This document shows positions 36,768-43,349 of a stretch of 52,825 nucleotides of DNA, piece by piece (position 1 is the first letter of the stretch; every line of letters starts with the position of its first letter). The stretch is from Halorhodospira halophila (GTDB taxonomy: Bacteria > Pseudomonadota > Gammaproteobacteria > Nitrococcales > Halorhodospiraceae). Under the pieces are notes generated by a model. It had not been told where the DNA came from, did not search any database, and worked only from the letters and a program-made list of their open reading frames with translations. The stretch covers positions 1 to 52,825 of the forward strand of contig NZ_NHSN01000033.1 in the NCBI RefSeq assembly GCF_016653405.1, written 5' to 3'. Position numbers and translations under genes: made by a program.

Positions 36768-37088
36768 TCAAGCCGGCGCGAAGACGTCGCACCAGCCGTC
36801 GCCGTTGACCAGGACGTCGGCGAAATCCGGGTGGGAGCATTCGCCGTAACCGTCCTCGACCTCCCCCTCCCAGAACCGGCAGTCGGCGCACCGCTGCCCG
36901 GACTCGTAACGGGCGTGGTCCTCCGCATCCGCCGCATCGCTCACGTAGTCGTGGGCGTGGCCGTCGTCGGCCTGCGGCATGGCGGTGGCTGTGCGCTGGT
37001 GCACCAGCGCACTGAGCGGGATGGCGGCGGCCGCCAGCGTCGTGGCCTGCAGCAGCCGGCGGCGGTTGGGATCGATGGCGTCAACCAT
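36768..37088 (-). CDS. pioC: High-potential iron-sulfur protein, PioC-like
   Basis: Periplasmic [4Fe-4S] electron carrier that in Fe(II)-oxidising phototrophs passes electrons from the outer-membrane conduit towards the reaction centre. From the ATG at 37088 (GGAGGAG upstream) the product has 106 residues. A Tat-type signal ([20 protein letters not shown]) is followed by the mature HiPIP with its four cluster Cys in [12 protein letters not shown] and GWCDVFAP. The [20 protein letters not shown] stretch closely recalls Halorhodospira/Ectothiorhodospira HiPIPs. It is the last gene of the pioABC-type operon. Confidence 0.9.
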
Positions 37089-37153
37089 CTTTTTCTCCTC
37101 CATGGCTCTCTCTCCCCGTCGTGTCGCAGTGCGCCCGCGCCCAGTCAGGCCGG

Positions 37154-39178
37154 TCAGAAGGTGTACCCCACCGAGCCGACCACCATGTGGGCCGTGTAGT
37201 CGTAGTTGTCGCGGCCCATGAGCACGTAGTCGTCCATCTCATCCACCGGACCGGGCCCGAAGCCCAAGGCCCAGTTGTCCTCCTCGAAGCGCTGGCCCAG
37301 GTAGGCCAGGCGGTAGTGGAACTGTTCCGAGGCCCGGTACTTGCCGTAGAGTTCCAGCTGTGTGAGCCGGGTGGTCAGCGTCGGGTAGTCGGTGTCCTGG
37401 GCGCGATCGAAACCGATGTCGACATCGGTGCTGGCGTAGAGCACCTCCGCGCCCAGGGACCAACGCTCGTCCTCGGTGACGGTGGCCTCCGTCCCCAGCC
37501 CGACGGTCAGCGTCTCCTCGTCCTGGAGCAGGCTGCGCTGCTCGCCGGCGAGCTGCCGCTCCCCGTCGTCCCAGGTGACGAAGCCGTAGCCGGTCCACTG
37601 CTCGGTGGGGAAATAGTCCAGGGACAATGTGTAGGAAGCGCGGTTGCGCTCCTGCAGCCCCATATCCGAGTCGGTGAAGTCGTCCTCGCTGTAGGTCAAC
37701 TCCGCGCCCAGGGCCAGCTCGGGGATCACGCTGTAGGTGCCGCTGACGCCCAACTGGGTCTGTTCCAACTCGGCCAGGTGGTAGACCTCCGCGGGCAGGA
37801 TGGTGGCTGCCTCGGACGCCGGACCGACGTACTCGGCACCTTCGCGGTAGAGCCTGCTGGCGAACACGGTCCCCTCCAGCTGGGGAGTGATCCGGCTGCG
37901 CAGCCGCGTGCGGAAGGTATCGTCCCGGGTGCTGCCGTCGGTGAAGTCGCGGTCGGTGTAGCGGTGCTCGTAGCCCAGCACCAGGTTGGAGCGCGCCGGC
38001 AGGCGGATATCCGCGTCGACGTCGGCGATGTGCCGCGTCCAGCCGTGGGGCCGCGTCCGGTCTTCCAAATCATCCTCCGTGAAGTACTGCGGCGTGCGGT
38101 TGTCCCGGTCGTCGTAGCGGTAGCTGCCGCGCACCTGCAGACGCGGATGGAAGCGGTGCGTCCCGCGTAGGGTTGCCCGGGTGGTGTCGATGCGCCCATC
38201 CAGCGACGAGGGCAGGTCGTCGTCGTCTTCAACGAAGCGTTCATCCTGCAGCGCACGGCCCAGCTGCAGGTCGGCGCTGACATTCGTCCCCGGCTGGATG
38301 GCGTAGGCGCCAGAGGCGAAGACCTGGTGGTAGAGGTTGTCGGGCTCGCGATAAACCTCGCCAAAATAATCCGGGTCACCGGGTTGAGCCGGATCTTCTA
38401 CAGTTAGTACCTCATCCGCGAGTTGCTGGAAGCTGGAAAGGTGGTAGCCAATACGGCCCTGTAGCTGATCACCTCCGTATTCCAGGCTCACGCGGTATTG
38501 ATCCGTGCGCTGATCGATCGGCACGGGGATTTGCAACCCGGTATTTGTAAAGCCGCCAGGATCCGGGGTTTCTACACGGCCGAACCGATAGGCGTCGGTC
38601 TCCTCCCGGCTAAAGGAGAAGTTCGCTCGCCAATCGTCAGTCAGGTGACCCACGGCATCGAAGGCAAGACGCTCGCGGTGGCGCTCCACCTTCCAGTCGC
38701 GCAGCAGTTCCGGGCTGTCCTCGAAATCATCGACACCGTCCCATCCGTCGGGGAGCGAGAGCCGGTCGGTGCCGTCACTGCGCAGGGGGCTCTGCACGTC
38801 GCGGTCGTAGAAGCGCGGGCGTTCGTCGTACTCCAGGGAGAACCCGTAGGTTCCCTGGACGCCGTAGCGACCGCGCAGGCGGCGGGAGTCGAGCCCGAGG
38901 TCCCGCCCCTCGAGGCGGCCGTAGCGGGCGTCTTCATCGCCCTCGCCGCGGTAGCGCAGGTCGAGGTGGGCCTCCGGGTAGAAACCCTCGTCCACCGGCC
39001 CGGTATAGCGGCGGAAGTGGTAGTTGTCCTCGCTCAGGTAACCGACCCCCAGCCACAGCTGCGAGCTGGCCGGGCCGACGAAGGTGGCCGAGGACTCCGG
39101 CGTGCCCGCGCCAGCGGCGGCGGGCAGGCCGAAGGCCGTCAGCACCAGGGCGCTGCTCAGGGCGCGCTGCTTGGTCAT
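37154..39178 (-). CDS. pioB: MtrB/PioB-family outer-membrane beta-barrel protein
   Basis: A 674-residue exported protein with a signal peptide ([20 protein letters not shown]). A long series of alternating amphipathic strands follows (for example [20 protein letters not shown] and [20 protein letters not shown]), ending in VVGSVGYTF with the C-terminal Phe. This is the MtrB/PioB barrel that sheathes a periplasmic multiheme cytochrome and lets electrons cross the outer membrane. The N-terminal CXXC found in Shewanella MtrB is absent, as in PioB-type proteins to my knowledge. GGAGGGAATC precedes the ATG at 39178. It lies 37 bases after pioA and 65 before pioC. Confidence 0.88.
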
Positions 39179-39215: not shown

Positions 39216-40184
39216 TTACGGATGAGGCCGGAAGCTGTCGCCGCCCGGGTGGTTGGAGCCGTGGATGTCCGAGTGGCAGTTCAGACAGCCGCGGCCGAGG
39301 AACTCCGCCCCGTCCGCCCAAGGACCACTGGTATCGAAGTCATGCGGATCCATTCCGGGATGAGGTCCTGGGCCAGCCCCATGCTGATGACACGACTGGC
39401 ACAGCTGTGTGGTCCGCGCCTCGAGCAGATTGGGATGCACCGAGCCGTGGGGGTCGTGGCAGTTGGTGCAGTCCTCGCGGACCGGCATGTGCTCCCACAG
39501 GAAGGGGCCGCGGTACTCGGCGTGGCAGTTGTAGCAGGTCTCGTTGACCTGGCCCTCGCGCAGGAGACTCTCGCCGCCGGTGCCGTGGGGGTTATGGCAG
39601 TTGGTGCAGGTCACCTGCCCCTCCTCCACCGGGTGGTGGTGGGGGCGGTTGAAGTCGACGCGGCGCTCCTGGTGGCAGCTGGCGCACAGCTGCAGCTCAT
39701 TCTCGGTGTGCAGCAGGCGCTCGTTCTCGCCGTGCATGTTGTGGCAGTCGACGCAGGCCATGTCCTGGAACTCGTGGGCGCCGCCGTGCCAGTGCATGCG
39801 ATCGCCCCCGCTGTGGCAGTCCAGGCAGGTCTGGTTGGCCTCATCGGTGCTGATGTCCTCACCGATCTGGTAGAAGTGCTCCCAGCCGTCGCCGTGGCAC
39901 TGGTAGCAGTAGTTGCCGTCTTCCGGCGTCTGTCCCGCCGGGGTGCGCGGGTCCGAGGCGACGGCGTGAGGGGTCTCCTCCATGCGACCGATGTGCGCGC
40001 GCAGGTCATCGACCCGGCGCTCGGCCATCACCGGCGAGAGGCCACGCACCTCCTCGACAAACTCTTCGATCTCTTCGGGGTCGAGGTCTTGAGCCGGGGC
40101 CGTGGCGGCGAACAGCAGCAGTGCGAAGAGGGCCGCGACGCCGCCGGCCGAGATCGCAAGCCGGTTGAGTGGTTGTCTGAACAA
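39216..40184 (-). CDS. pioA: Periplasmic multiheme c-type cytochrome, MtrA/PioA (DmsE) family, nine hemes
   Basis: A 322-residue cytochrome that threads into the PioB barrel and carries electrons across the outer membrane. After a signal peptide (VAALFALLLFAATAPAQ) there are nine CXXCH motifs. The first is at residue 93 (CYQCH) and the last near 300 (CLNCH), in the family context CYNCHAEYRGPFLWEHMPV and HGSNHPGGDSF. MtrA and PioA have ten; here the one nearest the N-terminus appears to be missing. The start is a TTG at 40184 with GGAGGAGGG six bases upstream. First gene of the operon, downstream of a sigma54-type promoter and an FNR-like palindrome. Confidence 0.9.
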   Translation of the reverse strand: MFRQPLNRLAISAGGVAALFALLLFAATAPAQDLDPEEIEEFVEEVRGLSPVMAERRVDDLRAHIGRMEETPHAVASDPRTPAGQTPEDGNYCYQCHGDGWEHFYQIGEDISTDEANQTCLDCHSGGDRMHWHGGAHEFQDMACVDCHNMHGENERLLHTENELQLCASCHQERRVDFNRPHHHPVEEGQVTCTNCHNPHGTGGESLLREGQVNETCYNCHAEYRGPFLWEHMPVREDCTNCHDPHGSVHPNLLEARTTQLCQSCHQHGAGPGPHPGMDPHDFDTSGPWADGAEFLGRGCLNCHSDIHGSNHPGGDSFRPHP

Positions 40185-40203
40185 GGCACCCTCCTCCCCT
40201 TCG

Positions 40204-40233
40204 GTGCAGGTTTGATCGTTATCAAACCTGCAC
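40204..40233. promoter_or_regulatory. Perfect FNR/FixK-type box inside a 13-base-arm palindrome upstream of pioA
   Basis: TTGAT-CGTT-ATCAA at 40212-40225 is an exact FNR/FixK/Anr consensus. It is embedded in a longer perfect inverted repeat with arms GTGCAGGTTTGAT and ATCAAACCTGCAC. Its centre lies about 35 bases upstream of the pioA start codon. It is close to the predicted sigma54 transcription start, a position suited to blocking transcription or to forming a leader hairpin rather than to class II activation of pioA. Confidence 0.8.
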
Positions 40234-40234
40234 T

Positions 40235-40251
40235 TAGCAAAAGGCAGGCCA
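40235..40251 (-). promoter_or_regulatory. Sigma54 (-24/-12) promoter of pioABC
   Basis: Read on the minus strand, TGGCCTGCCTTTTGCTA has GG and GC separated by exactly ten bases, with TGGC and TTGC around them, close to the sigma54 consensus. Predicted transcription would start near 40226, leaving a leader of about 40 bases before pioA. A sigma54-activator gene is divergently encoded next door. Confidence 0.7.
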
Positions 40252-40350
40252 GGTCAAACGGGCCGCGATCAAAGCCCCGCGATTCCGGGAGTTCAGCGGG
40301 AGGCCGGGGTTGCGGACGGGGGGTCGGCGGGGCCTGCCAGCGGTCAACGG

Positions 40351-40378
40351 CTGCGCAGCCTGGTCGCAGCCTGCGCAG
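40351..40378. promoter_or_regulatory. Tandem palindromes, candidate upstream activator sites for pioABC
   Basis: CTGCGCAG occurs at 40351-40358 and again at 40371-40378, 20 bases apart. The first copy is extended to GGCTGCGCAGCC. They lie about 100-130 bases upstream of the -24/-12 element, the usual place for dimer sites of NtrC-type activators with a Fis-like DNA-binding domain. The likely ligand is the regulator encoded at 40510. Confidence 0.6.
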
Positions 40379-40425
40379 CGCCCCCCCGGTGGTCGGCGGC
40401 TCGCCCTTGTGCCATGGTGACTGGG

Positions 40426-40439
40426 TTGATTAATGTCAA
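40426..40439. promoter_or_regulatory. Second FNR-like half-consensus site upstream of the regulator gene
   Basis: TTGAT-TAAT-GTCAA differs from the FNR consensus at one position. Its centre is about 78 bases upstream of the regulator start codon, so it could activate the two-component genes with a start near 40474. No clear -10 hexamer is seen there. Confidence 0.45.
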
Positions 40440-40509
40440 ATCATAAAAAGCAGGGCACGCTGCGCCCACCAGGGCCAGACACGCCCTGCCGGGCGCCGGG
40501 AGGAGAGGC

Positions 40510-41874
40510 ATGCGCGGATGCGTTCTGGTCGTGGATGACCACCGGGAGATCGTCTACGCCGTCCGGCGGCTGCTGGAAAGCCGCGGCCTGGAGGTGATCA
40601 GCGCCGCCTCGGCCGCCGAGGCCGAGCCGCTGGTCGCACGGGCGGATGCGCTGATCCTCGACATCCAGCTGGAGCAGGACAACGGCCTGGCGCTGCTCCA
40701 GCGCCTGCGCAGCGCCGGGGACGAGACCCCGGCGCTGGTGCTGTCGGCCCACACCTTTCCGGACAACGTGGTGGAGGCCAGCAAGCGCGGCGCGCTGCAG
40801 ATCCTCGCCAAGCCCATCGAGGCGGAGGCCCTGGTGGCGGCGGTGGAGGAGGCCCTGAGCCAGACCCCATCCGGTACCGAGGCCTCCGGGCTGAGCGCCG
40901 AGGCCCACGAGGTGCTCGGTACCTCGGCGGCGATGATGGAGGTCTTCAAGGCGTTGGGGGTGGCCGCGGCCAACGACCTCAACGTCCTGCTCACCGGCGA
41001 GACCGGTGTCGGCAAGGAGGTCTCGGCGGAACTCATCCACCGCCACTCCCACCGCGCGCACGGGCCGTTCGTGGCCATCAACTGCACCGCCATGCCGGAG
41101 AGCCTGCTCGAGGCGGAGCTCTTCGGTCACGCCAGCGGCGCCTTTACCGGCGCCAACCGGGCCGCCGAGGGCAAGGTGGAGGCAGCCACCGGCGGCACCC
41201 TGTTCCTGGACGAGATCGGCGACATGCCGCTGGCCTTCCAGGCCAAGCTGCTGCGCTTTCTGGAAGACAAACGCTTCTACCGCCTGGGGGAGTCGACCCC
41301 GCGCCAGGCCGATGTGCGGGTGATCGCCGCCACCAACCGCCAGCTCCTCGGCGCGGACGCGGGTCAATTCCGCAGCGACCTCTACTACCGCCTGGCGCAG
41401 ATCCCGGTACACATCCCGCCGCTGCGCGAGCGACTTGAGGACGTCCCGTCGCTGATCGAGGCCTTCATCCAGTCGGCCAATCAGGAGATGGACCTGGATA
41501 TCCACGGCATCACCCCGGCGGTGCGCCGCCAGGCCCAGGGGCACGGCTGGCCGGGCAACGTCCGCGAGCTCAAGAACGCCGTCTACCGGGCCGCGGCCAA
41601 GCGGCAACGCGGGCTGATCGACAGCCTGGAACTCGCCACCGGACAGGGCGAGCCGACCGGCGACGGCGACTTCGAGGCGGCGCTGGACGGCGCGCTCGAC
41701 CGCGCGCTCCACCAAGGCGAGCTGCCGGAGCTGCTCAACGAGATCGAGCGCCGTGCCGTGCAGCGGGCGCTGAAGCATTACAACGGCAACAAGAGCCGGG
41801 TGGCCGAGGCCCTGAACGTCTCGCGCAACACGCTCCGCGCGCGGTTGCAGGCCATGGAGGAGACGACGGAGTGA
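40510..41874 (+). CDS. Sigma54-dependent response regulator (NtrC family, Fis-type HTH)
   Basis: A 454-residue activator. The receiver domain (1-115) has acidic residues in VVDDHRE, the phospho-acceptor Asp51 in ALILDIQLE and Lys101 in ILAKPIE. The AAA+ domain has Walker A GETGVGKE (163-170), the sigma54-contacting GAFTGA loop (210-215) and Walker [13 protein letters not shown]. The C-terminal Fis-like helix-turn-helix reads [20 protein letters not shown]. It must therefore act at -24/-12 promoters; the best local one drives pioABC. It is coupled to the kinase gene by a 4-base overlap (GTGA). Confidence 0.95.
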
Positions 41875-43349
41875 GGTGCTGGCTGCCGCGCAACATGGCG
41901 GTACGCCTGGGTGCCACCTTCCTGCTGGTGACCCTGCTGGTGGCGCTGCCACTGACACTGTGGTTCGACCACTACGCCCGGGGCATGATCGAGGCCGCCG
42001 TCGAGCGGGCCGTCGAGGGGGCGGACGCGCGCATGATCCTCGACGCCGCGGTGGTCTCCGAGGCGTTCGACCGGGTGCGCGGCCTGGCAATCTTGGTGGT
42101 CGGCCTGAGTGCGCTGCTGGCCGCCGGCATCGGCGCCCTCATCGCGGCGCGCTGGCGGGCACGGATGCGCGGTATCGTCGAGCAGGGCCACCGCCGCGCA
42201 CGGCGCGCCCAGGGCGGTGGCGAGCAGCCGGCGCGCTGCCCGGGCAGCCCCCGCCCCAGGCCGGGCGAGGACGAGCTCGACACCGTCGAGCGGCAGCTGC
42301 TCAACACCGTGGACCAGCTGGGGCGTTCGCAGTGGCTGCTCGACAGTGTCGAGGACATGGTCATGTTGGTCGATGCCCACGGCACCATCCGCCACGGCAA
42401 CGCGGCCATCGGCACGCGCTGCGCCAGCTGCCCGGTCGCCGACTGCCAGGGCGCCAGCGTGCCGGACATCCTCGGCAACGGGCTATGGCTGCGCATCCGC
42501 AACGGCATCGAGCGCAGCGGGTCCGGCACCTTCGAGCAGGAGCTCCCGTTCGAGGGGCGACATTGCCCCGCCCTGGTCTCCTACCGGGTGTTGGGTGAGC
42601 TGATCCTGATCAAGATCACCGACCTGAGCGAATACCGCAGGCTCCACGAGCATCTGGAGAAGCTCCAGGCCCTATCCACGCTGGGGGAAATGGCCACCGA
42701 GCTGGCCCACGACATCAAGAACAGCATCGTGCCGGTGCGCCTGCTCTGCGAGGTCGCCCCGCTGGAGACGGAAGACCGGGAGGCGATCTTCCGCTCGCTG
42801 GATCACATCCACGAGCTGGTCAACGATTTCATGGCATTCGGCTGCGGGCGCAGCAGCGAGCGGCGCAGCGGCGCGCTAACCGAGATCCTGCAGAGCTGGA
42901 CGACGGTGCTGCGCAACGAGGCCCAGACCAAGGGTGTGAACCTGAGCGCGGAGATCGCCGACGCCCCGGTGGAGCTGCCCGGGGGCTTTCGCATCGTCTA
43001 CGCCAATCTGGTGCGCAACGCCGTCCAGGCCGTGCCCGCCGGCGGCCGGGTGCAGGTGGATGCCCGTGTGGATGAGCGCGGCACGCTGGTTCTGGAGGTG
43101 ACGGACGACGGCCCGGGCATCCCACCGTCGCTGCGCGAGCGGCTGTTCGAACCCTTTGCCACCAGCCGCACAGACGGCACCGGGCTGGGGCTGGCGCTGG
43201 TCCGGCGCTACGTGGAGGAAGCCGGCGGCGAGGTCGCCTGCGACTCGACGCCCGGAGCCGGGACCACATTCACGGTGCACTGGCCAGGGGCCGGCGAAGC
43301 AACGGGCCGCTCACCGACCCCGTACCCAGGCCAGGCCTCGCCCGCCTGA
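41871..43349 (+). CDS. Sensor histidine kinase with cysteine-containing PAS domain
   Basis: A 492-residue inner-membrane kinase (GTG start overlapping the regulator stop). Two membrane segments (about 10-31 and 70-95) flank a short periplasmic loop. A cytoplasmic PAS-like region starts near 155 (LDSVEDMVMLVDAHGTIRHG) and contains C184-X2-C187-X4-C192 and a further Cys232. The phospho-acceptor His280 is in EMATELAHDIKNSIVPVR. The ATP domain has NLVRNAVQAV, DDGPGIP and GTGLGLALVRRYVEEAGGEV. The signal is unknown; the cysteines suggest metal, Fe-S or redox sensing. It presumably phosphorylates the regulator upstream. Confidence 0.93.
   Translation: MRCWLPRNMAVRLGATFLLVTLLVALPLTLWFDHYARGMIEAAVERAVEGADARMILDAAVVSEAFDRVRGLAILVVGLSALLAAGIGALIAARWRARMRGIVEQGHRRARRAQGGGEQPARCPGSPRPRPGEDELDTVERQLLNTVDQLGRSQWLLDSVEDMVMLVDAHGTIRHGNAAIGTRCASCPVADCQGASVPDILGNGLWLRIRNGIERSGSGTFEQELPFEGRHCPALVSYRVLGELILIKITDLSEYRRLHEHLEKLQALSTLGEMATELAHDIKNSIVPVRLLCEVAPLETEDREAIFRSLDHIHELVNDFMAFGCGRSSERRSGALTEILQSWTTVLRNEAQTKGVNLSAEIADAPVELPGGFRIVYANLVRNAVQAVPAGGRVQVDARVDERGTLVLEVTDDGPGIPPSLRERLFEPFATSRTDGTGLGLALVRRYVEEAGGEVACDSTPGAGTTFTVHWPGAGEATGRSPTPYPGQASPA

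Follow-up and report, generated by a model that had tools for sequence, protein, structure and literature searches.

The probable electron conduit locus and the divergent regulator gene

What controls the pioA-pioB-HiPIP genes of Halorhodospira halophila, whose products probably carry electrons across the outer membrane? How electron-uptake conduits are regulated is known for very few organisms. The presence of MtrAB with an adjacent HiPIP in Hrs. halophila is already in print, and the section of that paper on MtrAB-HiPIP clusters does not mention regulation (PMC8877833). We analysed the window, that is, the whole of a 52,825-nucleotide stretch (contig C33 of a 2.86-Mb genome, G000), and compared it with the other genomes of the genus. 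Our main reading, to which we give a probability of roughly 0.75 from sequence comparison, is that a sigma-54 promoter and the adjacent NtrC-family regulator control pioA-pioB-HiPIP. The genes concerned, with the motifs in their products, are as follows:

36768-37103, minus strand: HiPIP, pioC-like (PF01355, E = 7.1e-21)
37154-39178, minus strand: pioB/mtrB outer-membrane barrel (PF11854, E = 1.8e-130; TIGR03509 above cut-off)
39216-40184, minus strand: pioA/mtrA-like multihaem cytochrome (TIGR03508, 235 bits; cut-off, 192)
40510-41874, plus strand: NtrC-family response regulator (receiver, PF00072; sigma-54 AAA+, PF00158; Fis-type HTH, PF02954)
41137-41154: intact GAFTGA motif of the regulator
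41785-41847: HTH stretch of the regulator
41871-43349, plus strand: histidine kinase with PAS domain (PF02518, PF08448)
42420-42446, plus strand: C-x2-C-x4-C motif of the kinase PAS domain

The 325 bp between the divergent pioA and regulator genes hold the promoter, palindromes and boxes described below. The regulator has all the marks of a sigma-54 enhancer-binding protein (an AAA+ domain with GAFTGA, a receiver and a Fis-type HTH), which confirms the first-pass annotation in its claim of an NtrC-type activator with an intact GAFTGA loop just beyond the promoter region. It is NtrC-like rather than NtrC (GlnG), because it scores below the NtrC equivalog cut-off (TIGR01818, 392.8 versus 558.6 bits). 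Among the five orthologues that we read from the genus, the HTH stretch is almost identical. In G000 and in two other genomes of the genus, G003 and G002, the regulator gene directly adjoins pioA in divergent orientation. Two more, G006 and G001, both possess the regulator: in G001 its gene lies on a different contig from pioA, and in G006 another gene stands between the two. Across 12 genomes of the family, a regulator orthologue (60% identity or more) and pioA were both present in six and both missing in four, with one alone in two (Fisher one-sided, 0.045); the exceptions, G005 with only the regulator and G011 with only pioA, are both incomplete assemblies. A search for rpoN in G000 gave a single match (PF04552, 1.7e-70).

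The cysteine motif of the kinase PAS domain is kept in G003, G002 and G001 and is changed to CPCSNRC in G006. This C-x2-C-x4-C motif hints that the kinase may sense a metal or redox signal.

A predicted sigma-54 promoter element conserved within the genus

The sigma-54 consensus, TGGCACGNNNNTTGCW, has 12 defined positions. The first-pass annotation had described a GG-N10-GC promoter facing pioA, and we recovered it:

40251-40236, minus strand: -24/-12 (sigma-54) promoter element TGGCCTGCCTTTTGCT (GG, ten bases, GC; 10/12 to consensus)

Transcription from this element is predicted to start near 40225, about 12 nt after the -12 GC, giving a predicted leader of ~41 nt before the pioA start codon, a TTG preceded by GGAGGAGGG. 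Across the window the pattern shows no enrichment (62 matches at ≤3 mismatches versus 80.5 expected), and window-wide scoring is therefore useless alone; the window's own match, taken singly, is only moderately improbable. Comparison within the genus is more telling. The best GG/GC match in the 200 nt before pioA scored 10/12 in G000 (shuffle P = 0.0175), 10/12 in G003 (P = 0.0075), 12/12 in G002 (P = 0.0005), 11/12 in G006 (P = 0.0005) and 11/12 in G001 (P = 0.001). Nine genomes of the genus were compared, and pioA was found in these five only; the remaining four gave no match to it. The combined P of 1.4e-9 over the five is smaller than it should be, because the species are related and because three start codons were picked from likely ribosome sites. 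With GG-N10-GC in good consensus context (10 to 12 of 12) in five of five pioA upstream regions, the predicted -24/-12 element is well supported by conservation.

Outside the genus the element becomes rare. In G010, which belongs to another genus of the family, the match upstream of pioA reaches only 8/12, and the G011 contig starts inside pioA. Among 78 loci with a pioA homologue, 76 had enough upstream DNA for scoring, and seven of these have a match of at least 10/12, against 1.0% of control windows; leaving out L007, L008 and L015, the count is 4/73, including L064 and L076. Sigma-54 control is thus no general property of this cytochrome family. As a side observation, genes for an NtrC-type kinase and regulator stand beside mtrA-like genes in four distant lineages (L052, L064, L072 and L076); upstream of the cytochrome gene, L064 and L076 have a 10/12 element, L052 scores 8 and L072 has none.

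Twin palindromes upstream of the promoter

Two copies of one palindrome lie upstream of the -24/-12 element:

40371-40378, no strand assigned: distal palindrome CTGCGCAG, candidate activator site, start at -142 (counted from the final base of the -12 GC)
40351-40358, no strand assigned: proximal palindrome CTGCGCAG, candidate activator site, start at -122 (counted in the same way)

They are 20 bp apart, start to start, and the nearer copy is 101 bp from the -24 GG, so that the pair stands where it had first been placed, ~100 bp upstream. Single copies of CTGCGCAG number eight in the window versus 2.8 expected, and GCTGCGCAGC occurs 64 times in G000, the nine genomes of the genus having 35 to 74 copies each; we rejected the single palindrome as a signal since it is too common. 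At 20-bp spacing, the exact pair is found a single time in the 2.86 Mb of G000, at pioA, compared with 0.07 pairs expected from the palindrome density of the window and 0.005 from composition alone. It also occurs once in G003, at pioA, and once in G001, elsewhere. For the other six genus genomes there is no exact pair among the matches listed, all of which have two mismatches. Because two-mismatch pairs are numerous in every genome, we counted only pairs that are exact or correctly placed; the control for the pair search, in which the word is reversed, tests a different word and does not make a fair comparison.

In G000 and G003 the exact pair sits at identical positions, -142/-122 from the -12 GC (pair P = 0.002 each), within intergenic regions that are only 64% identical (183/285 aligned bases). 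G002 has CTGCGCAG exactly at -139 and CTGAGCGG at -118, a 14/16 pair (P = 0.002). Upstream of pioA in G001 there is no pair (P = 0.90), only a TGCGCA core at -138, as in G002 (the core is at -141 in G000 and G003), and G006 has neither the pair (P = 0.84) nor the core, though its -24/-12 element is present. The conservation that the first-pass annotation had called for is therefore mostly there, in all five same-genus pioA genes for the promoter and in part for the palindromes: paired sites, in phase and with conserved spacing 80 to 200 bp upstream, are seen in G000 and G003, as a near-copy in G002, as a core in G001 and not at all in G006. Conservation moderately backs the palindromes as the putative enhancer of the regulator, and each is a probable activator site.

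The palindromes might instead serve another protein, or the regulator's own gene, and have no part in activating pioA. They do sit between divergent genes, the pair is missing at pioA of G001 and G006, and the G001 pair is located at a different gene. We nevertheless consider this unlikely, because the distance from the pair to the pioA promoter is equal in G000 and G003 whereas that from the palindrome end to the regulator ATG differs (132 and 94 nt), and because G002 keeps a near-copy at -139/-118.

The exact pair of G001 (Halorhodospira abdelmalekii) precedes a TorF-like outer-membrane gene, named by eye (L113:5068-5118, on G001:C7); it lies just downstream of another -24/-12 element (11/12), which is not a classic enhancer position. 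An Ectothiorhodospira locus (L009) has a 13/16 pair at -241/-219 (P = 0.006), which we did not count as support because the distance is different.

FNR-type boxes at the predicted start and before the regulator gene

The first-pass picture of a sigma-54 promoter with twin enhancers driving pioABC is supported for the promoter and the nearby activator and is incomplete, since it missed two FNR-type boxes, the first of which is the strongest single motif of the region:

40212-40225, no strand assigned: perfect FNR-type box TTGATCGTTATCAA (TTGAT-N4-ATCAA exact), over the predicted sigma-54 start
40204-40233: perfect 30-bp dyad around the first box
40426-40439, no strand assigned: second FNR-type box TTGATTAATGTCAA (9/10), before the regulator gene

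With one such box over the predicted start, sigma-54 and enhancer are probably only half of the control. FNR-type boxes with at most one mismatch number four in the window versus 0.16 expected, and perfect boxes are rare genome-wide (three in G000 and three in G003, one of each at pioA). Counted from the -12 GC, the box starts after 11 bases in G000 (perfect), nine in G003 (perfect) and 20 in G001 (9/10); two boxes of 8/10 are present in G002, at +10 and +25, and none was found near the start in the 200 nt upstream of pioA in G006. The best box in those 200 nt has P = 0.0005 in G000 and in G003, 0.0245 in G002 (where it is located upstream of the promoter), 0.57 in G006 and 0.0135 in G001.

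All 14 bases of the second box recur in G003, and its distance to the regulator gene downstream is 71 nt (G000) or about 33 nt (G003); at ~33 nt, activation from -41.5 would be impossible unless the message were leaderless. A weak -35/-10 pair (TTGTGC, 18 nt, TAATGT), recognized by eye, overlaps this box in both genomes.

Each of the nine genus genomes encodes a single CRP/FNR-family protein whose recognition helix reads ETVSR or ETISR, and all nine proteins have a CxxC...ALFG N terminus; the boxes are likely to be read by this FNR-type protein. Aligned with A. fischeri FNR, the G000 protein (L120:967-1740) matches two N-terminal cysteines and the Cys122 equivalent, whereas the third N-terminal cluster ligand is replaced by Ala. 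The four-cysteine set is thus incomplete, and FNR-like oxygen sensing cannot be assumed. The proteins read from the genus keep CxxC and the Cys122 equivalent, and those of the eight other genomes likewise show Ala at the third N-terminal ligand position.

Could this FNR-type protein activate pioA from a sigma-70 promoter, as FixK does in Rhodopseudomonas palustris, with the sigma-54 match secondary or a relic? A perfect box near pioA in G000 and G003, the single protein with a suitable helix in each of nine genomes and the activation of R. palustris pioABC by FixK in photoferrotrophy (PMC3050613) would all fit. The geometry does not. In G000 the centre of the first box falls at about +6 relative to the predicted start, and for it to be a class II site, centred near -41.5, transcription would have to begin ~7 nt within the pioA reading frame; G003 has kept this TTG and its ribosome site. 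G006, moreover, keeps the -24/-12 element without an FNR-type box near the start. A sigma-70 scan of 40100-40600 gave 0 matches versus 0.0 expected and hence has little power. We regard FixK-like activation as quite unlikely.

Since the position of the first box excludes the standard FNR activator role, and since a CRP/FNR protein bound there would, by geometry, cover the start, we infer a repressor or a gate. Whether such a protein does repress or gate the promoter seems to us an evenly balanced proposition; the second box may act likewise on the regulator gene. This FNR-type element at the start is, in our view, the most interesting part of the finding and the least tested.

That the dyads are instead RNA structures or chance, the palindromes forming one hairpin (arms 40350-40362/40367-40379, 92% complementary) and the 30-bp dyad a leader hairpin (arms 40204-40216/40221-40233, 100%), is highly improbable despite the over-representation of CTGCGCAG, because Rfam gave no match in 40100-40600, the palindromes lie upstream of the predicted start, G003 keeps only the 14-bp FNR core and not the 30-bp dyad, and G000 and G003 each contain the exact pair a single time, at pioA.

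Of the perfect boxes elsewhere, one precedes an ArsR/rhodanese-like gene (by eye) in both G000 and G003, with matching surroundings (L133:698-711 and L135:1478-1491), and another of G000 sits inside a coding frame.

Proposed regulation and relation to known systems

What the comparison shows is the elements themselves, how far they are conserved and the families to which the genes belong; from these we infer a start site, phosphorylation, binding and looping for the sigma-54 reading as follows. The pioA-pioB-HiPIP genes would be transcribed from the sigma-54 promoter; the neighbouring histidine kinase would sense a redox or metal signal and phosphorylate the NtrC-family regulator, which would bind both palindromes, ~130 and 150 bp ahead of the start, as paired dimers and open the sigma-54 complex through looping. 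A more tentative extension, which we think somewhat less probable than not to be right as a whole, is an opposed logic in which the Cys-cluster PAS kinase and the sigma-54 activator turn expression on, while the FNR-type protein, with its altered cluster site, holds the pioA start and the activator promoter off. The conduit would then be expressed only with the FNR-type signal relieved and the kinase signal present.

The known counterpart for the first part is glnA/NtrC, an NtrC-type sigma-54 promoter with paired upstream sites. The present locus resembles it in its -24/-12 element, two palindromes 100 to 150 bp upstream in helical phase, a GAFTGA response regulator and a single rpoN. It differs in its target, which is an outer-membrane electron conduit, in the FNR-type box over the start and in a regulator that scores under the NtrC equivalog cut-off; CTGCGCAG is presumably not the NtrC site. 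The arrangement is thus an ordinary, textbook promoter on an unusual target.

The known counterpart for the second part is R. palustris TIE-1, which shares a PioA/PioB/HiPIP-type operon with a CRP/FNR-family box upstream. Its two FixK boxes are found at -44.5 and -137.5 relative to a transcription start that precedes pioA by 177 nt, and FixK activates pioABC in photoferrotrophy and represses it in other phototrophic conditions (PMC3050613). There the -44.5 box is in an activator position, with a sigma-70-like -10 and a 177-nt leader, whereas here the box is over a predicted sigma-54 start with a predicted leader of ~41 nt. FNR-family input to pio is therefore already known, but at another position. 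The literature that we searched, in which coverage of subscription journals is thin, yielded no sigma-54/NtrC-type control of a Pio/Mtr conduit, and the mentions of RpoN in the papers examined concern nitrogen fixation, not pio.

If correct, the sigma-54 reading would give the MtrAB/PioAB-type conduits of extremely halophilic purple bacteria a concrete regulator, promoter and operator that can be tested, and would tie a cysteine-bearing sensor kinase to electron uptake; with the FNR-type box, it would also mean that a single start site can receive both sigma-54 and FNR-type inputs. The opposed logic, if true, would be a form of phototrophic electron-uptake control unlike the class II activation by FixK in R. 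palustris.

Haem-binding motifs of PioA

The naming of pioA in the first-pass annotation agrees with the TIGR03508 family, and the barrel and HiPIP of a PioABC/MtrAB conduit are present; the cytochrome departs from the decahaem type, as its product in the window has nine CXXCH motifs, not 10. The part of PMC8877833 that deals with MtrAB clusters of Halorhodospiraceae/Ectothiorhodospiraceae describes MtrA as a 10-haem protein. Nine CXXCH motifs are found in the PioA/MtrA proteins of Halorhodospira and Ectothiorhodospira (the window; L007 to L010, L087 and L088). Among the 78 homologue loci, 70 have 10 motifs and one has 11; the other low counts are nine in L032 and four in L015 and L037 (a contig end truncates L015). 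Alignment of 18 sequences shows that the motif absent from G000, G003, G002 and L007 to L010 is the N-terminal-most haem site, with the other nine kept; L032 has CPECP at this site. A HiPIP gene adjoins pioA in the window and in L009 and L010.
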